From a virus: a DNA stretch of 55,101 nt. This document shows, one piece after another, positions 10,214 through 44,110 of this stretch; within the stretch, counting starts at the first letter, position 1; every line of letters starts with the position of its first letter. Made by a program: the position numbers and the translations under genes. Below the pieces are notes generated by a model. It was given only the letters and a program-made list of their open reading frames with translations. It was not told the DNA's origin and did no database searches. Where the stretch lies: positions 1 through 55,101 of the IMG/VR virus record IMGVR_UViG_3300029448_000053. One strand, 5' to 3'.

Positions 10214-10393
10214 TCACTCATCCGACATGCTGTTTTTCTTTCTTTTTCTTTTATATATTAAGTAGCCTACTGTTAACCAAAACAGACATTCTATGATGAT
10301 AAGACCATATAGTGCAAAGAAAGGGTGGAGCATAGGACTCATGTTTGGTATTTTTTGGTGTGAGCCTTTAACATTACGCTCCAAAGCGCACAT
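10214..10393 (-). CDS. Small membrane protein between terminase and portal
   Basis: This is a frame of 59 residues from the ATG at 10393, overlapping the end of the terminase gene by 20 bases; a shorter start (MSPMLHPFF, 42 residues) is possible. It contains one membrane helix (ALYGLIIIECLFWLTVGYLI) followed at once by a strongly basic run (KRKRKK), which predicts that the C terminus stays in the cytoplasm. The function is unknown. Confidence 0.45.
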   Translation of the reverse strand: MCALERNVKGSHQKIPNMSPMLHPFFALYGLIIIECLFWLTVGYLIYKRKRKKNSMSDE

Positions 10394-11891
10394 ATTTTCC
10401 ACCGGAACTTCGATTCCGGCTTGGTTTCGTAGGTTTTTTGCCTTTCGACCACCCACCCATGCTTGTCGTTTTAGTTGCCATAGGCATAAAGTCGGAACGC
10501 TTTGGTTTGAATTGGTCTATTGCGTGCGCAAAAGCCATAACTGTATCGTTATGTTTGCCCACATCTATAATCTCACCATTTTTCCATACGTGGTTTTCGA
10601 GTTCGTCAAGAAGTATGCCAATTTTTTTCCGCATATCGGCGGTAGCATACGGGAAAACGATAAGTTCTCGCTCAAACCATACCCTTAACCGGTTCATTAG
10701 CCCCTGTTTAAGTCCTTTATTCGACACTTTAGATGGTCTATAATCAACCATGCCTCCTTTTTGCTCTATGATTGTTTGATACAGTCTTTGAAAACCTACA
10801 TCCTCAGCGGCCACTGCCGCCTTAAAGTGTTTAGCCCATTCGATTATAATATCAGCCTGTCTATCCGGCGCAAAATCATTACGCCTCCACATATCAACAA
10901 AGTGGACATAGCCGTCAGCATCCTGTCGCAACGATATTAAAACGGAGTAGTCTTTACCAATACCATGAGAAGGGTCGAAGCCGAGGATGAAGACGGAACT
11001 ATTGTCGAATTGACTATCGAATCCTCCGTCGGCACTTATGTCTATGTTTTTTCGGATGAGGTGCCTATTGAATACTTGGGCATCATCATCAACGACCTTA
11101 CACAGATACTCTTGAGAGAAGGCGAGGTCGTCATCCATGCTGATTTTTTGTTCCAAGAGAAAAGCGGTGGGTCGGAACTTGGGCCAAAGTGGTGTTAACT
11201 CTACTTCGGGATTAACTCGGTGCTCATCCCAATTGGGGAATGCCGACCATACACCACTTTTCCATACTTGTTTAGCCTTCTCGGATAACATCTCGGTTTG
11301 ATAAAGGTCAGTGTGGGACATTGGCGTGCCGACACAGAACAGTGATGTTTCGGGGTCGAGCATTGGAGTAACTACTTTCTTGAACCACTCTCGCACCGAG
11401 TCCATAGTCATATCCCCCATTTCAGCGAGGACATCATCAAGTGCTACTACGGCAGGGTGCTCTCCACGGATAGCGGAACCTACACCGGTTGCTTGAATCC
11501 AAGCACCGTTGGTAAATTGTATTTTTTGCTTGTTTGATTTACGTTCATTGAGATACTTTCGTAGTTCGGGGTGTCGGCGCATATCAGTCTTAATCTCCTC
11601 AAGACGGTTTGTTGCTTGGCGAATAGATGCGGAAAATAACCACACCTCCATAGGGTTGCCGTTGCGTTCTTCAAACAAACACATGTGAAGTAATTTAACA
11701 CGTAGTGTTGCTGATTTGCTGTGTGAGCGGGGAGCGATAATACAGACACGATGAACTGCCGCGCCTTTACGGTCGCCGTATAATTCCATCCATTCGCCTA
11801 TGTGGTCGGCCCATTCGTATTCGGGGGATAACCATTCATAAAAGTGGCGGATGTCATACTTGGAGCGTTGAAAGTCAAAGTTGGTTATCAT
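10374..11891 (-). CDS. Terminase large subunit
   Basis: This 505-residue protein is the DNA-packaging motor and nuclease. Visible motifs: Walker A-like APRSHSKS at 53-60, Walker B VVALDD at 148-153, the coupling motif VGTP near 187-190, and the RNase H-like nuclease acidic residues in FDPSHG (305-310), E363-D364 and HND (447-449). The Walker A is unusual because both glycines of the common PRGHGKS form are serines. The start overlaps the small zinc-finger gene by four bases, and the portal follows after a small membrane gene. Confidence 0.9.
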   Translation of the reverse strand: MITNFDFQRSKYDIRHFYEWLSPEYEWADHIGEWMELYGDRKGAAVHRVCIIAPRSHSKSATLRVKLLHMCLFEERNGNPMEVWLFSASIRQATNRLEEIKTDMRRHPELRKYLNERKSNKQKIQFTNGAWIQATGVGSAIRGEHPAVVALDDVLAEMGDMTMDSVREWFKKVVTPMLDPETSLFCVGTPMSHTDLYQTEMLSEKAKQVWKSGVWSAFPNWDEHRVNPEVELTPLWPKFRPTAFLLEQKISMDDDLAFSQEYLCKVVDDDAQVFNRHLIRKNIDISADGGFDSQFDNSSVFILGFDPSHGIGKDYSVLISLRQDADGYVHFVDMWRRNDFAPDRQADIIIEWAKHFKAAVAAEDVGFQRLYQTIIEQKGGMVDYRPSKVSNKGLKQGLMNRLRVWFERELIVFPYATADMRKKIGILLDELENHVWKNGEIIDVGKHNDTVMAFAHAIDQFKPKRSDFMPMATKTTSMGGWSKGKKPTKPSRNRSSGGKYVRFGA

Positions 11892-13479: not shown

Positions 13480-13500
13480 CTGGGCTGTCCCTATATACCT
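13480..13500 (-). promoter_or_regulatory. TATA promoter of the terminase operon
   Basis: On the minus strand GGTATATAGGGACAGCCC lies about 80 bases before the phosphoesterase start. The box TATATAGG followed by a GC-rich stretch fits the viral promoter style seen elsewhere in the window. Confidence 0.45.
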
Positions 13501-13563
13501 TATAGGTCGTGTTTTTGGCGGCTCATCGAACAAGGCGTGGCCTCAAAGAGAGAGGGCCACCTC

Positions 13564-13581
13564 CACCCGTCGAAACGGGTG
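13564..13581 (-). terminator. UUCG-capped hairpin after a small early gene
   Basis: On the minus strand CACCCGT-TTCG-ACGGGTG forms a perfect 7-bp stem with a UUCG loop, about 50 bases after the stop of the gene at 13630-14025. There is no T-run, so it may protect or process an RNA end rather than terminate. Confidence 0.4.
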
Positions 13582-13629
13582 AAGGGGCGGCATCGGTTAA
13601 ACCGTATTACTGTATCACTGTGTTATTGA

Positions 13630-14025
13630 TTAACTACAATTACAGGTTGTCGTTTGACAGTGGCACCAACCACCATAATCCGCTTCTTCATCATCTACTT
13701 GGTGCATCGGTGGCACTGCATCATCAAGTGCTTGACGGAACTTGTCAAGTTCTTTCTGTGTATATCCTTCACTGTGTAGGTATTCCTTGTTGAGACTGAG
13801 ATACTCTCTCATCAACGCTTGAAACACTGTGGGCCACTTGACGGCAAAGTCAAGGGTGTTCTTTTGTAGTCGGTCGTATTCGGCATTGTAATAATACCTC
13901 ATATATCCTGTCTCCATGTGTTTCAACATCACCGTGAACTCAGTCCATGTGGCAGTCCATAGCATGACCTGCATAACCATTAACGACGGTATCTCGCTCA
14001 ATCTCATTTTTTTGCTGTTGTCCAT
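13630..14025 (-). CDS. Protein of unknown function with Cys-rich tail
   Basis: The protein has 131 residues and starts at 14025 behind GGAGATATGAAAA. The body is helical and Met/Tyr-rich; the end is acidic and then has a Cys cluster (WCHCQTTTCNCS) that could bind a metal. No family is recognised. It is expressed from its own TATA-like site and ends before a UUCG hairpin, so it appears to be a single-gene unit. Confidence 0.5.
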   Translation of the reverse strand: MDNSKKMRLSEIPSLMVMQVMLWTATWTEFTVMLKHMETGYMRYYYNAEYDRLQKNTLDFAVKWPTVFQALMREYLSLNKEYLHSEGYTQKELDKFRQALDDAVPPMHQVDDEEADYGGWCHCQTTTCNCS

Positions 14026-14080
14026 TTTTCATATCTCCATAGGCCGACCTCTTCTGTTTCTGTGTCGGTTATTCCGACAT

Positions 14081-14100
14081 GGGGAGCCACTACTATATCA
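14081..14100 (-). promoter_or_regulatory. TATA promoter of the 131-residue gene
   Basis: On the minus strand TGATATAGTAGTGGCTCCCC matches the GATATA-GGC-CCC promoter family seen before genes at 27.6 kb and 25.1 kb. Confidence 0.45.
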
Positions 14101-14200
14101 ATACTCACTGAATTATCACCATATTTTGCATGATTTGAGCATGATTGAGGTGAGCCACAGTATAGGCCGATAGGTGGGGGATGTTGCCCTATATTGTATG

Positions 14201-14250
14201 TATAGTCTTATCAGTCTTTACTTAGGAGGAAAATGCGTGGGAGAGAGATT
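14201..14250 (+). promoter_or_regulatory. Operator/leader element D (TATAGTCTTA ... GGAGAGAGATT)
   Basis: TATAGTCTTA at 14201 is followed by AGGAGGAAAATG and GGGAGAGAGATT. The same two blocks, at similar spacing, recur at 15348, 20893 and 21024. This is the most diverged copy: its hairpin is not intact. Confidence 0.4.
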
Positions 14251-14490
14251 CGTAGGGAGAGAGATTCTCAAACCTACAAAACCCCAATCGAATATGCCAC
14301 CACCACCGACGGATTGAAGGGCCGTCGCCCTATCTGTGCTACCTACCTATTCGACCAATTCAAGAAGGGCTGTGTAGGCTTCTACAATGTGCTTGAGTTG
14401 GGTGTTCATTGTCAAACCCATACGGCTCTTTTTGTATTCGGTTGTTTCGACTTGATACAGTGGAGTTATTTTGTAACCTGTCCGAGTTGA
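14233..14490 (+). CDS. Doubtful 85-codon reading frame behind a perfect SD
   Basis: The ATG at 14233 has an ideal AGGAGG site three bases upstream and lies behind element D. The frame begins MRGREIRRERDSQ and overlaps the end of the convergent gene at 14347-14817 by 144 bases. The second half looks like an antisense shadow. It may be a short real peptide, or the region may act only as RNA. Confidence 0.25.
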   Translation: MRGREIRRERDSQTYKTPIEYATTTDGLKGRRPICATYLFDQFKKGCVGFYNVLELGVHCQTHTALFVFGCFDLIQWSYFVTCPS

Positions 14491-14817
14491 TGCACCCATG
14501 CACTCTCCATGCTCTTTACCGCCACCGCTTCTCTTATTGGCACCGGACTTCTTGATTGGGCCGGTTGAACGGCCATGTGAACGACCACTCAATGAGGTTT
14601 GGGTTTTGGTGTATCGGTGTCCGGTTAATCGCTTCTCTCTCTTAGCCACTGTTATGCGAGTTGCGTTATGTGTTACATCACTTTCAATCGCTTCTTCAAT
14701 CTGTGCGATATATCGGCTTTGGTCGGCTTTAATTCTCTTGATTAGTTGCTTCGATGCTTGGGGCTTCGCTTCATCTATTCCGTAGTGCGTCAATAGGCGT
14801 TTTAGTTGTCGGGCCAT
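14347..14817 (-). CDS. Basic protein of unknown function
   Basis: The protein has 156 residues, is rich in Lys, Arg, Ser and Gly (SLSGRSHGRSTGPIKKSGAN) and ends in a helix (HIVEAYTALLELVE). The start at 14817 (MARQLKRLLTHYG) follows CGGAGAATC. A GTG at 14934 would add 39 codons and overlap the upstream stop, but that stretch contains a GC hairpin and reads as low-complexity Pro/Arg, so I reject it. The composition suggests nucleic acid binding. No family is recognised. Confidence 0.5.
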   Translation of the reverse strand: MARQLKRLLTHYGIDEAKPQASKQLIKRIKADQSRYIAQIEEAIESDVTHNATRITVAKREKRLTGHRYTKTQTSLSGRSHGRSTGPIKKSGANKRSGGGKEHGECMGASTRTGYKITPLYQVETTEYKKSRMGLTMNTQLKHIVEAYTALLELVE

Positions 14818-14865
14818 GATTCTCCGAGGGAGTGGTAGTATATCAACGGTGGGGTGTGGCTCCCC

Positions 14866-14892
14866 CGCCCTCCGAAGAAGGCGAGGGGGCGG
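14866..14892 (-). terminator. GC-rich hairpin between two minus-strand genes
   Basis: Blocks CCCCCGCC and GGCGAGGGGG pair across a short loop in the spacer between the 60- and 156-residue genes. There is no T-run; it may act in mRNA processing or attenuation. Confidence 0.35.
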
Positions 14893-14930
14893 CTCATAGG
14901 CTCTCAGTGGCCCGATTGTTTGAGTGATGC

Positions 14931-15113
14931 TCACTCAAAAGAGGGTAGGTTTCCGTTCCGGTCTTGTTGTCGGTCAAGGTAGACCTGCAACACATCGTCA
15001 AAGAGAGAGGGGCGTTCCATCATGGACATATCCCTTACCCGTGTGTCTTCCAACAAGCAAATAATGTTCCTCAACCTGCGTATTTCATTCATCAGTTCTT
15101 CGTTTGTTTTCAT
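14931..15113 (-). CDS. Small helical protein, first gene of a minus-strand pair
   Basis: This is a 60-residue protein starting at 15113 behind GGAGGAAAAAAC. It is mostly one helix (NEELMNEIRRLRNIICLLED) followed by an acidic region. A longer frame would begin 17 codons earlier but lacks a ribosome site. The function is unknown; a small regulator or coiled-coil adaptor is plausible from the composition. Confidence 0.5.
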   Translation of the reverse strand: MKTNEELMNEIRRLRNIICLLEDTRVRDMSMMERPSLFDDVLQVYLDRQQDRNGNLPSFE

Positions 15114-15190
15114 GTTTTTTCCTCCATTGTTTTTACGGTTCGCCTGTTTTCTGTTCTTGTCCACTGACTTTCCCGTATGTGCATACTAAC

Positions 15191-15208
15191 ACCTATATCA
15201 TATATAAA
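15191..15208 (-). promoter_or_regulatory. TATA promoter for the 14.3-15.1 kb genes
   Basis: On the minus strand TTTATATATGATATAGGT lies about 80 bases before the 60-residue gene. It is divergent from the plus-strand element at 15348. Confidence 0.4.
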
Positions 15209-15347
15209 CGGTTCCCGAATAATGCTCATACCTATTGTTGAGTGGATGGGGGGTTGCCCCACGCACGGCCCCGCCGCCGGTATAAGACTGTTAATAGAAA
15301 ACGCGCTTGGGGAGAGATACTCGGCGTTTAGCCTCTGTAATATACTA

Positions 15348-15420
15348 TATAGTCTTAGGAAGGAACCGTGAACGGGAGGGGGCTTGGGAGAGAGATTTTG
15401 ACTTCTCCAAAAGTCCAAAC
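15348..15420 (+). promoter_or_regulatory. Operator/hairpin element C
   Basis: TATAGTCTTA (15348-15357, inside ACTATATAGTCTTA) is followed by GGAGAGAGATTTT (15387-15399), a short loop and AAAAGTCC-AAAC. The flanks GATTTT and AAAAGTC can pair, with one T-G pair. The copies at 20893 and 21024 keep this hairpin with different bases. It may drive a small RNA that ends in the T-runs near 15506-15549. Confidence 0.5.
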
Positions 15421-15505
15421 TTTTCATGCTGTCGGCTCATGGTCTGTCGAATGTGTCCGAGGTTATGAACCCTTTGTTTTCTTGCTTTTTTGGCTGGAAT
15501 TGAAC

Positions 15506-15549
15506 TTTTTTCTGTTTTTTTTTCTGTCTGTTTTTTTCTGTTTTTCTTT
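15506..15549 (+). terminator. Poly-T archaeal terminator
   Basis: Four T-runs of five to nine bases in 44 bases, split by CTG and CTGTCTG, form a classic archaeal termination signal for plus-strand transcription from element C. On either strand the stretch encodes only low-complexity Phe/Leu or Lys runs. Confidence 0.5.
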
Positions 15550-15670
15550 CGGTCTTGAATCGTTGCCCCTGATGTCCTAAACGGGGCACTGCGAGACCGG
15601 TGGCCCCTCCGCTCTCAAATGTGCCTTTTTTGGGCTGTTTTGGGCTTTGTCCGGCCAATGACAGGCCGAC

Positions 15671-15699
15671 GATTTAGGGCACCCTAAATCTCTTTTTTT
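15671..15699 (+). terminator. Hairpin plus T-run terminator
   Basis: GATTTAGG-GCAC-CCTAAATC is a perfect 8-bp stem with a 4-base loop, followed by TCTTTTTTT. It is the clearest hairpin-plus-U-tract terminator of the window and closes the region upstream of the large RNA candidate. Confidence 0.6.
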
Positions 15700-15754
15700 G
15701 TCTTCTATTCGATGGACTGCGAGCCTGTTTTTTGCAGAATGCCACTTGGATAAG

Positions 15755-15768
15755 TTGATATACTTGAG
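15755..15768 (+). promoter_or_regulatory. Probable promoter of the large RNA
   Basis: TTGATATACTTGAGCGGG resembles the GATATA promoter family. Initiation about 25 bases downstream would be near 15785; the first paired segment I see (15769-15775) begins slightly before that, so the exact start is uncertain. Confidence 0.35.
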
Positions 15769-16871
15769 CGGGAATCGGTAATTGCTTCTCCAACCGGAGG
15801 GAGCCGAAGTGAATAATTTGCCCCACACTCATTCCCGATAGTTTAGGGATTCAATGAACGGGGAGTTTCGGAGGGTCATTAAAGTGGCCGTCGAAGAACC
15901 AAGAACAATACAGCGAACACATCATGTTCCCTTCAAAAACTGAAAACATCCAGAAAAAGGAGGGATTGCGTAGCCGTGCACTGCCTCTCTTGAGAGGTGG
16001 GGTAACGGACTCTTGAAGCCGGCTTTTGAGACACCCTCTCAAATATATTCAACGGCATGGGCGTGAGTCATAGGACAAACACGAACATTTGATAGACGGG
16101 TCGGGAACACCTTGACCCTCATGGGAGTTGCCTTCGACAGAAGAGGCACTGAAAGCATGAATTAGTGGATGGTTGAGAAGCATCACTTCTCGACAGGGGC
16201 GACCCGACTCCATCCAATAATCACCGCTTACAACTCTATGACAGTGGACTTAAAACCCCACTTGAGAGCATATATGACAAACAAGACCGCAATGAACTTA
16301 TGGGAACATATATCCGAAAGGAGGCTGTTTAAAGGTGTGCGCATCAGATTCGGGTGTTTCCCGACTGATGACACTATTTAGTAGCGAATTATTGAATTAC
16401 CGATGTAACCGGCGACGGGTGCATCAAACCATTAGATTTTGAGTCTCCACAGGCGGAGGTTCGCATATACCCACCGTGGTTATGCCTTACAGGAACTTTA
16501 TTTTTCAAGACGGCGTGGCTATGCGGTAGCAATACCGGCGGAGTGTCTATGATGCGAGGGAGGCGTGAACTTTTTTGAATAGGTGAGTCGGTCCGGTTGT
16601 ATAGCCGGCTCACTGAATTATCACGGCTCGGATTCATGCTCCAACATACACTACAATACACGGACATGATGAAAGGCAATCCTCCCGAATAATCTTCTAA
16701 TCCTGTGAAAAACGGCGCTTGAGGTGCTCCGCCAATGACGGCCCCAATCACAGTCCTCGCCCACATACGGGCAGAGCGTGGGATTATCTACGGCCTAAAC
16801 CGGACCACGCAGTATGAAAATGGAGCGGAGACTCTACCGCTACCGAACTCTCTCCCTCAAAGAAAGAGAGT
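15769..16871 (+). ncRNA. Large structured non-coding RNA candidate (about 1.1 kb)
   Basis: No protein gene fits here. I find a dense series of stems: 15769-15775 with 15831-15837; 15914-15918/15924-15928; CCTCTC-TT-GAGAGG near 15984; 16025-16031/16037-16043; 16098-16102/16114-16118; a three-way junction at 16165-16215; 16243-16247/16258-16262; 16270-16276/16307-16313; a long composite hairpin at 16335-16374; 16402-16425; 16524-16537; a 10-bp stem 16583-16592/16604-16613; GGATT/CATG stems at 16630-16682; 16760-16764/16778-16782; 16824-16828/16837-16841; and 16847-16852/16866-16871. Several plus-strand loops are GNRA (GCGA at 16197 and 16412, GAAA at 16316, GCAA at 16529); on the minus strand they would not be. 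It could be a free RNA or a very long leader of the amidoligase gene. Confidence 0.6.
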
Positions 16872-16944
16872 GCTTGAAAGAGAGCAAAGAAAAGAGAGGC
16901 GCGACTTGTAGGCAAAGAGTCAAAAAAAACGGAGGAAAAAACAA

Positions 16945-19644
16945 ATGTATGAAAATGCAATGAACACAGATAGTGGTTTAGGCATGATTTTTGCTATGCT
17001 ATGGGTATTCCTACTCATGGGCGCAGTAATGACGGCCTTCATCACCCAACGATTAGAAGAAACAATGCGAATGCGTGTTGGACTCGAAATAGAAGTTCTA
17101 CGGAACGACCATACCGAGAATGCACCCAACCACTCAATTGCGACTTGGCTTGACATGAAAGCGGCCGCCGAAGGCGACGCCTACAATCAAGCGTATGAAA
17201 AGACACGAAAGAAGCGTGTCAGCATGTATCGAAAGACTCGTGCGAAGCGGCGAGAGGCAATACATAAAGCCCTGCCCCATTCATACTACAATAGACGTTT
17301 TAGAGTTCGTGATGAGTCGTGGTCTCAAGGCCGCACTGCACCACATACCAAAGTCATACCCGATGGTTCACTATCGAGTGGTGGCTTTGAAGTCGTGTCG
17401 CACCCTTTAACAGATGGTGCACATCATGGTTGGATTGCCACACTTGGTAGACTACTACGACACATAACTCGTATTGACCGCTCATGTGGGCTTCATGTCC
17501 ACATTGGCCTAAGAGACCCCGACGCTAATTTTGGCGACGGCGGTCAACTTACAATGACCGATGCAAAATCAATTGCTGGTCGAGTTGCTTGGGCCTATGC
17601 TTACTTCACCGATGCTTTCAACCAGATTGTATCACCGAGTAGACACTCCGGTCAATACTGCCAACGGTCCTACCATATGCTTCGGACTCACCCGAACCCA
17701 ACAAACCACACTACACGCCGACGAGACACTCATGTGATGGATAACCCATCACAGGAAGCCTACATACTTGATGGGACACATGAATACGAACAACTGTATG
17801 ACAATGACCCAAGTGAAGGATATGTAATCTACCGAGTTGAAAAACTTGAAGGGCAGACCTTGTGGCATAAAATGTATGACAACGCACGGAGTCATGGTCG
17901 TTATTACCATCTCAATGTGTGCAGTCTCCTTGACAGGCCCTTTGGCACTGTCGAGTTCCGTCAACATCAAGGAACATCAAACCCAGTGAAAATGAGTAAC
18001 TGGGTCGACTTATGCTATGAGTTTGTATTGCGGTGCGCCAGTGTCGAAAACTTTAATGGAATACAGGCATACTCACAGGACCTCAAAGGACTGTGGGCAT
18101 TCCTTGACTATGCGGAGGATGACCCAGTGGTTGACTATTATACCAAGCGTGCATATGTTCTAAATGGAGGCAACTTCATACGGGACTGCGACAATTGCGG
18201 TAGTAATACCTGTGTGCATTACGAGTGTGTAACAAAACTTGACAGCGACATTTCCGATGACGCCAAAAGATTCTTTGCCAACTCTCGTGATTGGTCTTGT
18301 TATGACTGCGGTAGTAGTAATTACCTTAGTGAGATTAACACTGAATATGAAACTGCTCACTGTGAATACTGCGACAATGAAGTGTCAATACACTGTTCCG
18401 GTGCAATTGCATCACTCGCCCTCGGCCTCTTTGTAGCCGCACCACTCGTGGGTGCAGTTGCACTGGTAGTCGGATGCGGTATAGGTGCAATCCATGTTGG
18501 TGCCAAGAAGTTCCAATCAAAGAAGAACTTCAAGCGTTTGTTCAATGACCTCGCAGTGCGTGGTGGACAAGCGTCTGGTTTTGCGTGGCAAAAGTCCAAA
18601 GGTGGCGAGACATCCGAACTGTGGTATATCAAATCGCCCACTCCCTCGACTCATCTCAAGAAGCGTGTCGATGACCTTGTAAAAGGCGACACTATTTGGA
18701 TAATGGGACATACTCGATTTGCCACACACGGTGAAAACAATTCCGACAATGCACACCCGCACTGGAGTCCAGACGGACACATAACACTTATTCACAACGG
18801 TGTTGTAGGTAATTATGACAAGGTGTGGAAAACCCTCGGCCTCAAACCGACGGGTCCAGTAGACAGCCAAGCAGTTGCCGCCGCTCTCGAAGTTGGTGGT
18901 ATCGAAAAGGTTGTTGAACTGTGCGTGGGCAATATGTCATTGATTTGGTCGGACAACCGAGACCCGAAAGGGACACTCAAGTTCTGGACAAACGGTGGCA
19001 ACCCACTATGTGCTGGTAGACTACATCATCCAAACAAAGGTCCACTCGTCATAGCATCGACATTACCAATCCTCAAGCAGTCTCAAAAGGGCTTGAAAAC
19101 ACACTGGTCGTGCACTATCGGAACTGAATACACAGTTCACCCCGATGGTTCAATCGAAAAGCGTGATATTGAAGGAAGTGAGGATAGTGTCGGTGTTGGC
19201 ATGTATAACTGGCGAACATATGCGAGCCTATACGGTGGTAAGTCAAAGTCCAACAAGACTCGGACTATTACAGTCAACGCACCAACGGGTAAAGCCGATG
19301 GTGTGGCTGATAATTGCACACTACCCGATGTATCGGACAGTTACGAATACGATGACATGGTGCTCAACGATGTTCTAAATGACGTGTGGGCACAGATGAG
19401 CATAGATGGTTGGATTCCAATTGACGAATACCACGGTTACGACACACAGACACATGTTGGCGTGCGGCCCGATGGAACATCCTACAAACTACCAAATTAC
19501 TACGGTGGTAAGGCTATGGACCCAGTTATGGACACAGACCAAATGGTAATGGTATTGCGTGGCGAGTTTGACCCACGCACTACGACCAAAGGATTCAATG
19601 AAGTAGAATCCTACTGGAATGACGTGCAGGAATACTACAACTAA
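16945..19644 (+). CDS. Membrane-anchored amidoligase / zinc-finger / class II glutamine amidotransferase fusion
   Basis: The protein has 899 residues and starts after GGAGG. Residues 13-33 form a membrane helix. An amidoligase_2-type (COOH-NH2 ligase) domain follows, with GLEIE at 46-50, CGLHVHI at 181-187 and EFRQHQGT from 337. A Cys-rich double zinc site lies at about 413-484 (CDNCG, CYDCG, CEYC). A second hydrophobic stretch (about 487-510) ends in VVG-C511. From C511 the sequence fits a class II glutamine amidotransferase: CGIGAI, RGGQASG, GHTRFATHG near 587-595 and HNGVVGNYD near 618. These enzymes need Cys as the N-terminal residue, so cleavage before C511 is expected if it is active. 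Known amidoligases join amines or ammonia to carboxylates on peptides; the target here is unknown. Confidence 0.8.
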   Translation: MYENAMNTDSGLGMIFAMLWVFLLMGAVMTAFITQRLEETMRMRVGLEIEVLRNDHTENAPNHSIATWLDMKAAAEGDAYNQAYEKTRKKRVSMYRKTRAKRREAIHKALPHSYYNRRFRVRDESWSQGRTAPHTKVIPDGSLSSGGFEVVSHPLTDGAHHGWIATLGRLLRHITRIDRSCGLHVHIGLRDPDANFGDGGQLTMTDAKSIAGRVAWAYAYFTDAFNQIVSPSRHSGQYCQRSYHMLRTHPNPTNHTTRRRDTHVMDNPSQEAYILDGTHEYEQLYDNDPSEGYVIYRVEKLEGQTLWHKMYDNARSHGRYYHLNVCSLLDRPFGTVEFRQHQGTSNPVKMSNWVDLCYEFVLRCASVENFNGIQAYSQDLKGLWAFLDYAEDDPVVDYYTKRAYVLNGGNFIRDCDNCGSNTCVHYECVTKLDSDISDDAKRFFANSRDWSCYDCGSSNYLSEINTEYETAHCEYCDNEVSIHCSGAIASLALGLFVAAPLVGAVALVVGCGIGAIHVGAKKFQSKKNFKRLFNDLAVRGGQASGFAWQKSKGGETSELWYIKSPTPSTHLKKRVDDLVKGDTIWIMGHTRFATHGENNSDNAHPHWSPDGHITLIHNGVVGNYDKVWKTLGLKPTGPVDSQAVAAALEVGGIEKVVELCVGNMSLIWSDNRDPKGTLKFWTNGGNPLCAGRLHHPNKGPLVIASTLPILKQSQKGLKTHWSCTIGTEYTVHPDGSIEKRDIEGSEDSVGVGMYNWRTYASLYGGKSKSNKTRTITVNAPTGKADGVADNCTLPDVSDSYEYDDMVLNDVLNDVWAQMSIDGWIPIDEYHGYDTQTHVGVRPDGTSYKLPNYYGGKAMDPVMDTDQMVMVLRGEFDPRTTTKGFNEVESYWNDVQEYYN

Positions 19645-19728
19645 GCATTGTTTCTTTAATCGACCGATGTCCTTAGTGTAATACACACTGAGGTTCCTTA
19701 ACCGATGGTTGAGGTTGCCGCCAATCTT

Positions 19729-19742
19729 GGGGCTTCGGCCCC
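19729..19742 (+). terminator. UUCG hairpin after the amidoligase gene
   Basis: GGGGC-TTCG-GCCCC is a perfect 5-bp stem with a UUCG loop, 85 bases after the stop. It lies just before the first copy of the cassette module. Confidence 0.4.
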
Positions 19743-19753
19743 TTGAGAGGCCC

Positions 19754-19833
19754 CCGCTGGCGAGCGGTTTACAAATACGCATTCACATTCCAGCCTTCGG
19801 GCATTCCTATTCCCTCACAGGGAGGTATAACAA
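19754..19833 (+). repeat. Cassette module copy 1 (hairpin, TATA-like box, SD leader)
   Basis: The stem CCGCT-GGCG-AGCGG (19754-19767) is followed by TTTACAAATACGCAT, then TTCCCTCACAGGGAGG and TATAACAA just before an ATG. Related modules lie before the genes at 20080 and 20566 (leader only) and at 20757. The box AAATACGC may be the promoter of each small gene. Confidence 0.55.
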
Positions 19834-19935
19834 ATGATGACTGCAAATGAAATTGAAGATGCAATAATCGCTGAACAAGTGGCTATTGATACTGCAAACA
19901 AAGAAGCATGGGCATTGGCTATTAGTCAATGCTAA
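19834..19935 (+). CDS. 33-residue acidic microprotein
   Basis: The frame starts ATGATG behind GGGAGGTATAACAA and encodes MMTANEIEDAIIAEQVAIDT and 13 more residues, ending in SQC. It is acidic, helical and has a C-terminal Cys. It is too short for a known fold. Its own promoter-like module and strong ribosome site argue that it is made in quantity. Being next to the amidoligase gene, it could be a peptide substrate or inhibitor; this is a guess. Confidence 0.5.
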   Translation: MMTANEIEDAIIAEQVAIDTANKEAWALAISQC

Positions 19936-20013
19936 GTAATTGTAATACAATTACTACTGTTAAACCGATGACTTGGCATACTCCAAGACGGCTGAGGAGC
20001 CACCCCAAATAGA

Positions 20014-20079
20014 TGCGACCGTCGTGGGCGCTATACAAATACACGCATATTCCCCCACAGGAAAGGAGGTAAAACAAAC
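20014..20079 (+). repeat. Cassette module copy 2
   Basis: GCG-A-CC...GG-G-CGC forms an imperfect hairpin (20014-20031), followed by TATACAAATACACGCAT, CCCCCACAGG and AAGGAGGTAAAACAAAC before the ATG. Block order and spacing match copy 1. Confidence 0.5.
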
Positions 20080-20415
20080 ATGGATAAATACAAGCAACAA
20101 ATTATGCAACTGTATGCTACGCTACTGCGTGCACACATAGCATTACTTGATGAGATATTGGATGCGGCTACAAGTAAAGCCGCACGCCGATGTGCAACCA
20201 AAGCCAGTGAGCAAATCTGCTCAACTGTGTATCATTTGATACATGACACTGGTGTTATGCCCAACAGCCACATGATACCATATATCGACGACTTGGCCCC
20301 AACAGCCGACGACTTCGATTTCGGTCTCATGCACTCTGTTCGGGATATGGAGAAGCAAGTGTTCCCGTCGACAGTCGGCGGTCGCACTGGCTTCGGCCTA
20401 TACCCAAGCAACTGA
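20080..20415 (+). CDS. Helical protein of unknown function in the cassette array
   Basis: The protein has 111 residues with a strong AAGGAGG site. The first 60 are helical (QQIMQLYATLLRAHIALLDE) and include a small Cys/Ala region (RRCATKASEQIC). The second half holds DDLAPTADDFDFG and ends GGRTGFGLYPSN. It has no known family that I recognise. It is the longest product of the microgene array and has its own module upstream and a UUCG hairpin downstream. Confidence 0.6.
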   Translation: MDKYKQQIMQLYATLLRAHIALLDEILDAATSKAARRCATKASEQICSTVYHLIHDTGVMPNSHMIPYIDDLAPTADDFDFGLMHSVRDMEKQVFPSTVGGRTGFGLYPSN

Positions 20416-20492
20416 TGTCTCATTAGTAATCCAGTATATCGGTAGGCCGTAGATAACTCGGCACTACTGTTCCCGAAAGGGTAGCCGCACTG

Positions 20493-20512
20493 CCCCTCGC
20501 TTCGGCGGGGGG
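20493..20512 (+). terminator. UUCG hairpin between microgenes
   Basis: CCCCTCGC-TTCG-GCGGGGGG pairs over eight positions (one T-G pair) with a UUCG loop, 78 bases after the 111-residue gene. Confidence 0.4.
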
Positions 20513-20565
20513 TGGTGCCCAACACCTCCTCTCACATCACACTCCACACAGGAGGTATAACAAAA

Positions 20566-20676
20566 ATGGAAAATGAATGGGAATGCGGTTGCATTCAAAC
20601 AGGAACAAATTGGATTCTGTGCAAAGACTGTAAGGCGGCGCGTGAGCACCCTCTTGCATGTGCTTGTTGCCAGTAA
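20566..20676 (+). CDS. 36-residue zinc-ribbon microprotein
   Basis: The frame starts behind CACAGGAGGTATAACAA, identical in style to the 33-residue gene. The product MENEWECGCIQTGTN... has seven Cys residues, including CGC, CKDC and CACC, enough for one or two metal sites. Such small ribbons usually bind nucleic acid or protein. It belongs to the array downstream of the amidoligase. Confidence 0.6.
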   Translation: MENEWECGCIQTGTNWILCKDCKAAREHPLACACCQ

Positions 20677-20756
20677 GCATAATCCAAATGCCAAGCCAAA
20701 AATACCAAATGGATGACGGGCATTTTAACCCGACGGTTGAGGAACCACCCACATAA

Positions 20757-20822
20757 ATGCGCTGGCGAGCGCCATATAAATACGCTTCATTTTTTTTATC
20801 ACAGGTAGAGGATGACAAACAG
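20757..20822 (+). repeat. Cassette module copy 4, without an intact gene
   Basis: GCGCT-GGCG-AGCGC, then CATATAAATACGC, a T-run and TCACAGG, followed by GTAGAGG and ATGACAAACAGATAG, which stops after four codons. The stem differs from copy 1 by paired changes (CCGCT/AGCGG to GCGCT/AGCGC), so base pairing is kept. The gene that followed seems to have been lost. Confidence 0.5.
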
Positions 20823-20838
20823 ATAGTCAGTAGACTAT
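20823..20838 (+). promoter_or_regulatory. Inverted-repeat operator ATAGTC-AGTA-GACTAT
   Basis: This is a perfect 6-bp inverted repeat around four bases. Its half-site ATAGTC is also the core of elements A-D, so one viral or host regulator may bind all of them. Confidence 0.45.
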
Positions 20839-20892
20839 GCTCCCCGTCGTGGGGGATGGATGGGCATGACTGGAGATGCTCTCTCTCTCTCT

Positions 20893-20963
20893 TATAGTCT
20901 TAAGACTTAAGACTATACCACATGCGCTAAGGAGAGCGATTTTTGGCGGCGAAAAATCCAAAC
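20893..20963 (+). promoter_or_regulatory. Operator/hairpin element A
   Basis: It begins with TATAGTCTTAAG facing CTTAAGACTATA (20893-20917), a near-perfect 25-base palindrome. GGAGAGCGATTTTT, the loop GGCGGCG and AAAAATCC-AAAC follow, with a 7-bp GATTTTT/AAAAATC stem. It has no start codon, so it is probably a regulatory or small-RNA element. Confidence 0.55.
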
Positions 20964-21023
20964 ATTCGCACACGCACACACACATGCGTCATACACTGCT
21001 AAAACCGAGGCTCTCTACGCACA

Positions 21024-21096
21024 TATAGTCTTAAGACTAATCCCCCCACCATACACGTATTAGGAGAGCGGTTTTTCACCTAAAAAAATCCAAATC
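21024..21096 (+). promoter_or_regulatory. Operator/hairpin element B
   Basis: TAGTCTTAAGACTA (21026-21039) is a perfect 14-base palindrome. GGAGAGCGGTTTTT, a short loop and AAAAAATCC-AAAT follow. Elements A and B are about 130 bases apart and both continue into CACACACACATGC, so they look like a tandem duplication. Confidence 0.55.
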
Positions 21097-21457
21097 AAAA
21101 TGCTTATGAGGCACACACACATGCACATATGTGCGTATATACGGTGCCGAATCCCTACGAAAAAGCCCCTAAACAGGCGAAAAAGCGAACATATGTGCGG
21201 AATCAGGCGCAAAACACCGGCAAAACGCCGAAAAACGAGGCACTTGTATCTGTGTGGGTAGGCTCACACGCTACATGCGAGTATTTCGATTACGCCAAAA
21301 ACCAAACATGTTATAATGCGTATGTGCTGGAACTCTCTACTTTCGCACCCGTTCCGCATACACATCCATACATGACGCATATATCTACGCTTACGCATAG
21401 GGCCAGCAAACAGTGGAGCAGTGGTCTCTTTAAGTATCGAATGTAGGGGGAGAATCC

Positions 21458-21474
21458 TAATATACCGGCGGCCT
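21458..21474 (+). promoter_or_regulatory. TATA promoter of the microgene train
   Basis: AATATACCGGCGGCC lies 30 bases before the ATG at 21489, which would give an almost leaderless mRNA. From 20964 to this point I see no well-supported protein gene. Confidence 0.5.
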
Positions 21475-21488
21475 CACATTTCACTTTG

Positions 21489-21896
21489 ATGGCAACCGAA
21501 ACGGAAACCAACGAAGCGAGAGGCTCACTGAGTCTCGATAACCTACAAGACGGCACCTATTGGTTGGCCGACGGCATTTTACGCCGGTCTGGGGCGACCA
21601 AAGGATATTGGGTAGCCTCGCATAGAGGCACAGACGCCCTGCTTGACCGAGAATTAACGCTGTATCACCCCGCCGTAACTGGAGCGACTGTAAAGGCCAT
21701 GCTTGAAGCCCCTCGAATCCTTAACCAAAGCCGCACATTTTATGTGGGTGTTTGGACTGATAAATCCGGCAACCAACATCTCGACTACGCATACCATGTG
21801 GATAAGTATAACGAGGCTATGTCAATCGCAAAATACAGAAAGCAACTCGCATTTTGGGATATTGGCATGGGTCGTGAAGTGGTGGTGAACCAATGA
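21489..21896 (+). CDS. Unknown protein, first gene of the microgene train
   Basis: The protein has 135 residues and starts at the ATG at 21489 (MATETETNEARG); a TTG one codon earlier is unlikely. It has a beta-rich centre (DGTYWLADGILRR, GYWVASHRG) and a final helix. No family is recognised. It sits 30 bases from its TATA box and overlaps the next gene by four bases, the pattern of the whole operon. Confidence 0.6.
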   Translation: MATETETNEARGSLSLDNLQDGTYWLADGILRRSGATKGYWVASHRGTDALLDRELTLYHPAVTGATVKAMLEAPRILNQSRTFYVGVWTDKSGNQHLDYAYHVDKYNEAMSIAKYRKQLAFWDIGMGREVVVNQ

Positions 21897-22300
21897 GCGA
21901 ACCGGATTATACCTCCGAATTAGCCTATCTCGCAGATGGGTGTGCGCCTTTGCATAAGGCAGAGGTGGAATACATCAATGTTGACCGAAAATCCAAACAT
22001 TTCGGTGAGCGAAAGACCATGATGAGCACCTTCATGTGTCTACAACCGAGCGAGACATCCGAAGTCGCACCTGTATGTGGCGGTGCAATCTATCGTTTCG
22101 GTGGGGATGGAACATGGTGTGCCTCATGTGGCCCCATACAAATCTCCAAATCACGCCTCAATAAGCAGTCTTGGTCGGCAATCATTTCAGGTTGGGTTCA
22201 GCGAAAGGCCCATCATGGATGGCTGTGCAATTGGACTGAGACCGAACAAGCCGAAGCCGAAGCACAGTGGCAGTCGGACATGGATAGGTGTGAACTATGA
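21893..22300 (+). CDS. Unknown zinc-ribbon-like protein
   Basis: The protein has 135 residues. A Cys-rich core (VCGGAIYRFGGDGTWCASCG) has the spacing of a zinc ribbon, with further Cys and His residues near the end (HHGWLCNW). The N terminus is acidic. It overlaps both neighbours by four bases. A role as a small nucleic-acid or protein adaptor is possible but not shown. Confidence 0.6.
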   Translation: MSEPDYTSELAYLADGCAPLHKAEVEYINVDRKSKHFGERKTMMSTFMCLQPSETSEVAPVCGGAIYRFGGDGTWCASCGPIQISKSRLNKQSWSAIISGWVQRKAHHGWLCNWTETEQAEAEAQWQSDMDRCEL

Positions 22301-41887: not shown

Positions 41888-44110
41888 ATGATAGTAACAC
41901 AGGTTGGCGGTAGAGATATACGCATACGGAGTAGAGACCCCGAAACACTTGAGCGTCAAGACCTAAAGGTCATGGCATACCCCTATTGTTTTTCAAACAA
42001 TGTAGGTGATACCTACGGACTGGTTAAAATCCAAGAAGGATTCGAGGGACTATACGGTCAAAAGTTAAACAAGGTGTATTTTCGCACCGAGTATGACCGA
42101 CGCTTATGGGCTAAAGGAAAAGAGACATGGGAGGCGAATGTAACATTCCCCAACCAAGTGTTGATTGACCGACTCGAAAAGGGCGAAGACCCCATCCCGA
42201 ACTACCAGCACCGTATTTGGTATCTCGATGGTGAATGGAAAACCACCTCCGGTGAAATAACCATGTTGTCGGTGCAGGACTCCTACACAGGTAGACTTTA
42301 TTCTTGGGTTCATCACCCCGACATAAAGGCCGGCGTCTACAAATCTCTCGAAGAATATGATTATGATACTCCAATTAAGGCGTTTGCTAATGAACGTCAA
42401 TTGCTCGCTGATTTTGCCGCACATATGGCAAAACAAGACCCCGATATTATAGCCGGTTGGTATGTGGTTGACGCCGACATTAAACAAATATGCGACCGTA
42501 TGAGAGCAGTGGGATTAGACCCAAAGAGTCTATCCCCATACAACCGACATGACTTCAAATACAACTGGAGCGATAAGCATTGGTCCCAACCGATTGCAGG
42601 TAGGTTATGTTTTGATTTGATGATTGGATTTAAAACATTATGGACTCTAAAGAACGGACAATTAGCGAGTCAAAAATTAGATGATATTGCTTGGCATGTG
42701 CTACAAGAGCGCAAAGTAGAGTTGCCCGACGGACACGACACATACTACTCCGACCCCGTAAAGTATCTCGATTACAACCGACAGGATGTGAGGCTACTAC
42801 CTCGGCTTGATGAAGCAGTGAATGCAACAGGCTACTATACTTCTATGCAACATGTGGTTCAATGTCAACTCGGCATTACTCCTCTCATCACCGCTATGAG
42901 CACGAGCCTATTCCTCCAAGACAATGAGTTTGACTTACGCATTCCCGACTCACCTCAATTTGAGAAGAAGGAGTATGCAGGGGCCGACATTCAAGAACCG
43001 GAGCCGGACCGTTATGAGAACATGGCTATCATGGATATTAAGGCCATGTATCACAGTAATGTAAAATTACATCGGATATGCTGGACCAACCTTAGTGAAG
43101 ACGGGGTGGATTGCGGCAACGGTATCAAGTTCACTCAAAGAGAAGGCTTACTGGGCCGCACTATGGATAAATTAACAATCAAACGTAATGAATACAAGGC
43201 TTTGATGAAGGAGGCTCGTGCCACTGGTGATGAAATCGCCTACAAGAAGTGGGATGGAGCGCAATTTGCTACGAAGTCTATGGTCGCATCCCTCTATGGG
43301 ATATGTGGCGATTCTAAATACGGCATGTATCACCCCGATATAGCCGCCGCTATCACATTCACCTCTCGCCAAACGCTGTTCCGATTACGGGATGAATGCA
43401 ACGAGCGAGGTTATCCTGTTCGATACGGACACACTGATTCAATTTTCTGTGAAGTGCCCTCTCCCGAAGAAGGCATGAAGTTGGTAATTGAAATCAACAA
43501 GTCTATGGCACCTATCGAGACCGAGTTCGAGAAGTGGTGTGAGTCTATGGTTCTCAAGGCTAAGAATCGCTATGCCGGTAAAGTTACATGGACTGATGGC
43601 GAATACCATGAGCCGGACTACTACTACAAGGGACTTGAACTAATACAGGCTCGAATGCCAAAGGCTATGAAATCCGCTATGGACTCCACTCTCCGTGCTA
43701 TTCTTGACGGAAAATCACGGGATGAAGTGGATGAGGACTTGAGTCAATTGATAAGCAAAGGTTTGGCCGGAGAACTTGGTGAGGACTTGTTGATGGTTGG
43801 TAAATTAAAGAAGCGATTGAGTGAATACAAGGTCTTGTCCGGCGCATCGGCAGGTGCATATTGGGCTAAGAAAACCCTCAATAAGAATTACAAAGTCAAT
43901 GAATCATTTTTGACTGCTGTGGATATTAAGGGCCAACATATAGCCTTTGATGACATACAGGATTTGGTGGGGACTACCGAGATTGATTGGTCGGAGATGA
44001 CCGAGAAGTTCATTGTCAATAAGGCATCGAGTATCTATGACCTTGTAGGATGGTCCACTATTGAATTAAACAACGCTCATCGAGGATTGGGTGCTGTTCA
44101 GTGGGTATAA
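41888..44110 (+). CDS. polB: Family B DNA polymerase with proofreading exonuclease
   Basis: The protein has 740 residues, close to archaeal PolB. Exonuclease motifs: Exo I DGE at 114-116, Exo II around D195/D197 (PDIIAGWYVVDAD) and Exo III YNRQD at 296-300. Polymerase motifs: A DIKAMYHS at 383-390, B KSMVASLYG at 463-471 and C YGHTDS at 513-518; KAKNRYAGK at 557-565 is the KKRY-like motif. Two unusual points: the usual Asn of motif B is Ala, and the first Asp of YGDTDS is His. The catalytic Asp of TDS is kept. It should replicate the viral genome with the clamp and RFC. Confidence 0.9.
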   Translation: MIVTQVGGRDIRIRSRDPETLERQDLKVMAYPYCFSNNVGDTYGLVKIQEGFEGLYGQKLNKVYFRTEYDRRLWAKGKETWEANVTFPNQVLIDRLEKGEDPIPNYQHRIWYLDGEWKTTSGEITMLSVQDSYTGRLYSWVHHPDIKAGVYKSLEEYDYDTPIKAFANERQLLADFAAHMAKQDPDIIAGWYVVDADIKQICDRMRAVGLDPKSLSPYNRHDFKYNWSDKHWSQPIAGRLCFDLMIGFKTLWTLKNGQLASQKLDDIAWHVLQERKVELPDGHDTYYSDPVKYLDYNRQDVRLLPRLDEAVNATGYYTSMQHVVQCQLGITPLITAMSTSLFLQDNEFDLRIPDSPQFEKKEYAGADIQEPEPDRYENMAIMDIKAMYHSNVKLHRICWTNLSEDGVDCGNGIKFTQREGLLGRTMDKLTIKRNEYKALMKEARATGDEIAYKKWDGAQFATKSMVASLYGICGDSKYGMYHPDIAAAITFTSRQTLFRLRDECNERGYPVRYGHTDSIFCEVPSPEEGMKLVIEINKSMAPIETEFEKWCESMVLKAKNRYAGKVTWTDGEYHEPDYYYKGLELIQARMPKAMKSAMDSTLRAILDGKSRDEVDEDLSQLISKGLAGELGEDLLMVGKLKKRLSEYKVLSGASAGAYWAKKTLNKNYKVNESFLTAVDIKGQHIAFDDIQDLVGTTEIDWSEMTEKFIVNKASSIYDLVGWSTIELNNAHRGLGAVQWV

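Follow-up and report, generated by a model that had tools for sequence, protein, structure and literature searches.

The window analysed here, the whole 55,101-nucleotide stretch of IMG/VR virus record IMGVR_UViG_3300029448_000053, carries four copies of one directional module, which we tentatively read, at slightly less than even confidence, as a transcription-start module of this virus clade that would serve non-coding + strand RNAs. This reading rests on the constant direction of the module, its near-fixed internal spacing, its lack of a TATA box and the T-runs nearby, which are strand-specific. All four copies are on the + strand and begin at 14201 (copy D), 15348 (C), 20893 (A) and 21024 (B), exactly where the sequence-only reading had placed a duplicated element (20893-21096) with extra copies at 15348 and 14201. 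Each consists of TATAGTCTTA, about 29 free bases and then GGAGAG, the distance from TATAGTCTTA to GGAGAG being 39 bases in B, C and D and 38 in A. All copies are intergenic and centrally placed, with the leftward structural arm and its terminase (10374-11891) on one side and the rightward replication arm and its PolB (41888-44110) on the other.

Architecture and conservation of the module

The combination of TATAGTCTTA with GGAGAG 20-40 bases further on was found four times in the window and in none of 100 dinucleotide shuffles. The decamer on its own is unremarkable and without significance, with 7 sites at up to one mismatch against 3.0 expected, a number reached by 5 of 100 shuffles. Copy A (20893-20962) has its AGTCTTA boxes inside a 21-bp palindromic stretch (20895-20915), followed by GGAGAG at 20931-20936, a stem of GATTTTT (20938-20944) with AAAAATC (20952-20958) and CCAAA. 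Copy B (21024-21094) opens with a perfect 14-bp palindrome, TAGTCTTAAGACTA (21026-21039), and continues with GGAGAG (21063-21068), a TTTTT/AAAAA stem and CCAAA, and the palindromes earlier described for these two copies are thus borne out. Copy C (15348-15419) comprises AGTCTTA at 15351-15357, GGAGAG at 15387-15392, TTTTG (15396-15400) facing CAAAA (15408-15412) and GTCCAAA, while copy D (14201-14287), in the 3' flank of a leftward gene, comprises AGTCTTA at 14204-14210, GGGAGAG at 14239-14245 and no TCCAA; neither C nor D has a palindrome of the A/B type. The hairpin that had been proposed for the element is good in A (7 pairs) and fair in B and C, but D has a different one, GTAGG (14252-14256) with CCTAC (14273-14277).

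Related viral contigs were gathered by terminase and amidoligase searches, the latter finding relatives when based on an alignment and none when based on a single sequence, and our conclusions rest on contigs with a terL or amidoligase relative plus L118, which was found by patterns only. We examined 21 loci, namely the window and L223-L242, for AGTCTTA followed at 30-39 bases by GAGAG on the matching strand. The pair was present at corresponding places in 15 of them, in 11 with a downstream CCAA as well; the module was absent from the other 6, reversed text gave no match, and the only - strand matches were four, all at the copy A palindrome. With a looser pattern, 13 of 16 related records matched, against one match of the reversed control. 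A lack of conservation of palindrome or hairpin in relatives, which the sequence-only reading had named as evidence against itself, is therefore not what we found. Counterparts of copy A occur in L223, L225, L226, L232, L235, L236, L238 and L118. In records that have them, C precedes the amidoligase gene by about 0.55-1.6 kb and A/B follow it at about 0.7-2.1 kb, and the modules persist although the stretches separating them vary much among relatives. Among the matches listed in a loose pattern scan of viral contigs most were chance, and at least L120, L122 and L123, of 10 pattern-matched stretches, look like chance, with no hairpin or TCCAA; a tighter scan of viral contigs gave no further copies.

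The distance from AGTCTTA to GAGAG was measured in 25 A/B/C copies, drawn from 10 records counting the window; it was 36-38 bases in 24 of them and 33 in one. Since these copies were picked by exact AGTCTTA, the invariance of that box among them is built in, and two degenerate copies, the second of L236 and the single one of L237, were omitted. The bases between AGTCTTA and GAGAG are unconserved between sub-clades. From GAGAG to CCAA the distance is about 27 by eye in copy C of the window and of L223 and in copy A of L226 and L232, for which the tabulated 19 refers to an earlier CCAA in the loop. D copies in relatives are spaced more loosely than A/B/C, and their number is one in the window and its nearest relatives and three each in L226 and L232. 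Three similar D-type copies each lie between small leftward genes in L226 (2463-3900), L232 (2601-3900) and L240 (3904-4860), and these have G+C-rich hairpins and CTCTCTC tracts resembling leftward terminators.

The T/A hairpin is conserved yet weak: the longest Watson-Crick stem of the 25 copies averaged 5.5 pairs against 3.65 in shuffles, whereas their folding energy was just slightly beyond that of shuffled sequence (mean z -0.95). Stems among them include GATTTTT/AAAAATC, TTTTG/CAAAA, TTTTCA/TGAAAA and CTTTTC/GAAAAG, with just 3-4 pairs in 5 of the 25 copies, and RNA folding of the window's A, B and C was weak (z -1.24, -0.20 and 0.54). No match at gathering score was obtained with Rfam in the window, and at E up to 5 the stretch 13500-22000 yielded one weak snoZ278 match, inside a gene.

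Exposure of GGAG had been suggested, and its use as a ribosome site is unsupported. Clear ribosome sites elsewhere are GGAGG just ahead of a start, and in A-C we found no start codon 5-10 bases downstream that opens a conserved frame. The accompanying statement that A and B have no start codon is true for the module itself, and the ATG at 21100, after B, opens no frame kept in relatives (by eye). Open frames running across the module were discarded as unconserved, the frame over D stopping early in L223 and L225 (by eye).

TATA boxes, T-runs and readings of the module

The pattern TT[GTC]ATATA, looked for from -6 to +37, was present in 0 of the 25 A/B/C copies, and a looser set of patterns in 2 of 25. 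Promoters of leftward genes have TTGATATA or TTTATATA boxes, in the window TTTATATA at 15201-15208 (- strand), 143 bp left of the AGTCTTA of C, and TTGATATA at 14094-14101 (- strand), which belongs to the leftward gene 13630-14025 and lies 103 bp left of the AGTCTTA of D. Upstream of the latter gene there is also an inverted repeat, TGTCGGTTATTCCGACA (14064-14080), which L124 retains and L021 nearly retains. A TAATATAC box stands about 27 bases ahead of the ATG (21489) of the first right-arm gene, with TTGATATA at the same place in L226 and L232. That this gene and the leftward genes own separate TATA-like boxes counts in favour of a start module.

T-runs are the usual terminators of archaea. 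On the + strand, six of nine C copies have a T6 run 60-200 bases downstream (background 8.6%; opposite strand 0/9; absent in L223, L226 and L232), and eight of nine A copies have one immediately upstream (background 6.9%; opposite strand none). A - strand TATA box stands to the left of six of nine C copies and of eight of 13 D copies, at a distance of 90-175 bp (background 1.5-1.6%; + strand none). These counts serve as a guide only, the genomes being kin, the binomial values not independent and the windows set after inspection. In the DNA studied here a cluster of T6-T9 runs (15486-15549, + strand) could be where a short RNA from C terminates, and a T8 run upstream of A (20790-20797, + strand) is a possible terminator of a + unit ending there; T8 runs behind + genes are found at 20790 and 31466. 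Within 450 bases downstream, a T6 run is absent for most B copies, the window's included, and for all D copies except one at +385. A second recurrent motif, approximately AACGATGGACTGCGAGCC and often with T-runs behind, stands at 15580-15593 and 15708-15721 (+ strand) and recurs in L304 (several direct copies), L226, L228, L230, L231, L237, L240 and L242, as well as in contigs without the AGTCTTA module; a scan with the pattern ACTGCG also matched unrelated contigs.

The promoter function, start site, regulator and every transcript proposed here are predictions from the sequence. AGTCTTA, which to our knowledge is not a known core promoter element, would replace the TATA box at roughly the TATA-box position relative to the GGGAGAG leader, and the paired half-sites of A/B could allow a regulator to bind as a dimer. 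The start of transcription is predicted to lie no more than about 10 bases upstream of GAGAG, which would give an RNA with (A/G)GGAGAG near its 5' start, then the T/A hairpin and then TCCAA. In contrast to the TTGATATA promoters of genes, each module would drive non-coding + strand transcription: C an RNA of about 100 nt terminated in the T-runs, A/B a transcript over the conserved non-coding stretch ahead of the right arm (21141-21470, + strand, between B and the gene starting at 21489), and D antisense RNAs against the 3' ends of leftward accessory genes. The suggestion of a small RNA is plausible for C, with its + strand T-runs behind, but the exposed GGAG attached to it is unsupported. For the putative C RNA no conserved fold was found past the hairpin (z -0.3 to +1.7 on the + strand in the first windows). 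In the stretch 21141-21470 consensus folds had z down to -5.0 in three relatives and not in L226/L232.

The same boxes could instead be operators for a virus regulator of the leftward accessory genes and the central region, with the GGGAGAG/hairpin part belonging to the same protein-DNA site and nothing transcribed there, a reading we regard as somewhat unlikely. It would fit the AGTCTTA half-sites, which are abutting, spaced or direct repeats and in A/B palindromic, and the placing of C and D mostly 102-148 bp from leftward TATA boxes, but a symmetrical site needs neither constant direction nor a 36-38 base spacing to GAGAG, and no convincing leftward gene lies left of A/B in the window. The several half-site arrangements do keep a binding site plausible, as had been proposed; the winged-helix regulator named for it is unsupported, because Pfam and PHROGs scans, which took in many, not all, of the window's proteins, found no regulator and gave one weak HTH_20 match (E 0.026) that fell short of the cut-off.

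Read leftward, the unit might also be a terminator (a hairpin with a CTCTCTC/T tract), with the next leftward gene's upstream region after it. This is good for the D copies of L226, L232 and L240, where G+C-rich hairpins precede - strand CTCTCTC or T/C tracts just past leftward stop codons, and the overlap of D with these apparent terminators counts against a start module. It is poor for A-C and improbable as a general account: no convincing leftward gene lies right of C in L235 or right of A/B in the window, no - strand T6 run follows any of the nine C copies, and a terminator needs no constrained spacing to AGTCTTA. Least probable is that A/B are repeats of a replication origin or other DNA-processing site and C and D stray copies, for which palindromes, repeats and a conserved non-coding stretch directly ahead of the replication arm would speak, but C and D are conserved too, among accessory genes, and GC skew has no origin signal separable from gene direction.

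The structured region upstream of the amidoligase gene

Between C and the large viral protein with amidoligase and glutamine amidotransferase (GATase) domains (16945-19644), a TATA-like TTGATATA at 15755-15762 (+ strand) is the likely start of a long leader. The structured, poorly coding region from this box to the amidoligase start at 16945 (15763-16940, + strand) is probably a long structured leader of that gene and not part of a C transcript, as suggested by the TTGATATA box and by the lack of signal in windows beside C. An extent beginning at C was dropped, z being near 0 there and the box lying at 15755.

When the entire interval between C and the amidoligase start was folded (25 shuffles per sequence), z on the + strand was -4.0 in the window, -6.5 in L223, -5.7 in L225, -2.9 in L224, -5.5 in L226, -3.6 in L232, -2.7 in L235 and -2.0 in L238; the - strand values were, in the same order, -2.0, -3.6, -4.4, -3.2, -2.2, -1.2, -3.4 and -2.5, so that the + strand folds better in 5 of 8 sequences. 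Consensus folds of the window with L223 reached z of -4.4 to -7.4 in windows at alignment columns 400-800 and -5.5 in one later window, with - strand windows down to -6.4. Coding controls had a mean z of -0.56 at equal identity (66%) and of -1.37 on the + strand at 82% identity, with individual windows as low as -3.9 (+ strand) and -4.9 (- strand). Mean consensus z was -2.42 for L226/L232, -0.80 for L225/L224 and -0.75 for L238/L235, and RNAalifold on L225/L224 left the structure unsupported except near the 3' end, perhaps through misalignment.

Compensatory changes beyond those of controls were found only in a core at 16155-16233 (+ strand) and not in the module itself. The helices of this core are P2 (16172-16180 with 16186-16194), P3 (16196-16198 with 16203-16205) and a hand-drawn P1 (16167-16172 with 16210-16215) that has one base in common with P2. 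In four sequences, 6 of 12 pairs changed on both sides, 95.7% of cells were paired, and the covariation score was 0.556 against 0.000-0.222 in slid controls. When 30 sources were searched with a model of the core, matches were limited to the 4 contigs from which it had been built. We regard the region upstream of the amidoligase gene as a candidate new viral RNA family.

Relation to known systems

Archaeal TATA/BRE promoters have a short box at a fixed distance of about 25-35 bases upstream of the start, and T-runs terminate their transcripts. The proposed start module resembles them in both the short box at such a distance from a presumed start and the candidate T-run terminators, but has no TATA-like box in the 25 A/B/C copies and instead an AGTCTTA box, often palindromic, followed by a conserved hairpin leader. 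Phage repressor operator sets place multiple palindromic sites in a central control region, as do the several copies here, which differ in their constant direction and in the 36-38 base spacing to the hairpin leader.

For the haloarchaeal tailed virus HFTV1, antisense and intragenic RNAs are reported, and its virus-coded antisense RNAs start inside operons or where operons end, as we propose for D (PMC12542753). The word "motif" is absent from the text of that report, and we saw no repeated start module in passages of it. Long structured RNAs such as GOLLD, ROOL and OLE, the first two of which occur in phages (PMC12286853), are comparable with the region upstream of the amidoligase gene, which differs in that the window has no Rfam match and the region reaches the gene start and may be a leader.

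An archaeal host is suggested by matches to PolB, an RFC-like AAA protein and ERCC4; the best PolB matches are Halorubrum viruses at 24%, and a search of GTDB genomes with terL found no relative. Profiles of Poseidoniales virus families have been published by the ICTV (PMC12999244, PMC13108676), and we assign the window to neither. In the open-licence literature we found no paper on AGTCTTAAGACT, on promoters of Poseidoniales viruses or on large noncoding RNAs of archaeal viruses. A bolder extension of the start-module reading, which we consider unlikely, is that AGTCTTA, the 36-38 base spacing and the GAGAG leader hairpin define a second, TATA-less promoter class that is reserved for a viral non-coding RNA family and recognised by an initiation factor, either virus-coded or redirected, while mRNAs use the TTGATATA promoters. 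Transcription control in uncultured archaeal tailed viruses is poorly understood, and the near-fixed spacing kept across this clade allows a precise prediction of start sites that is checkable in existing marine metatranscriptomes.
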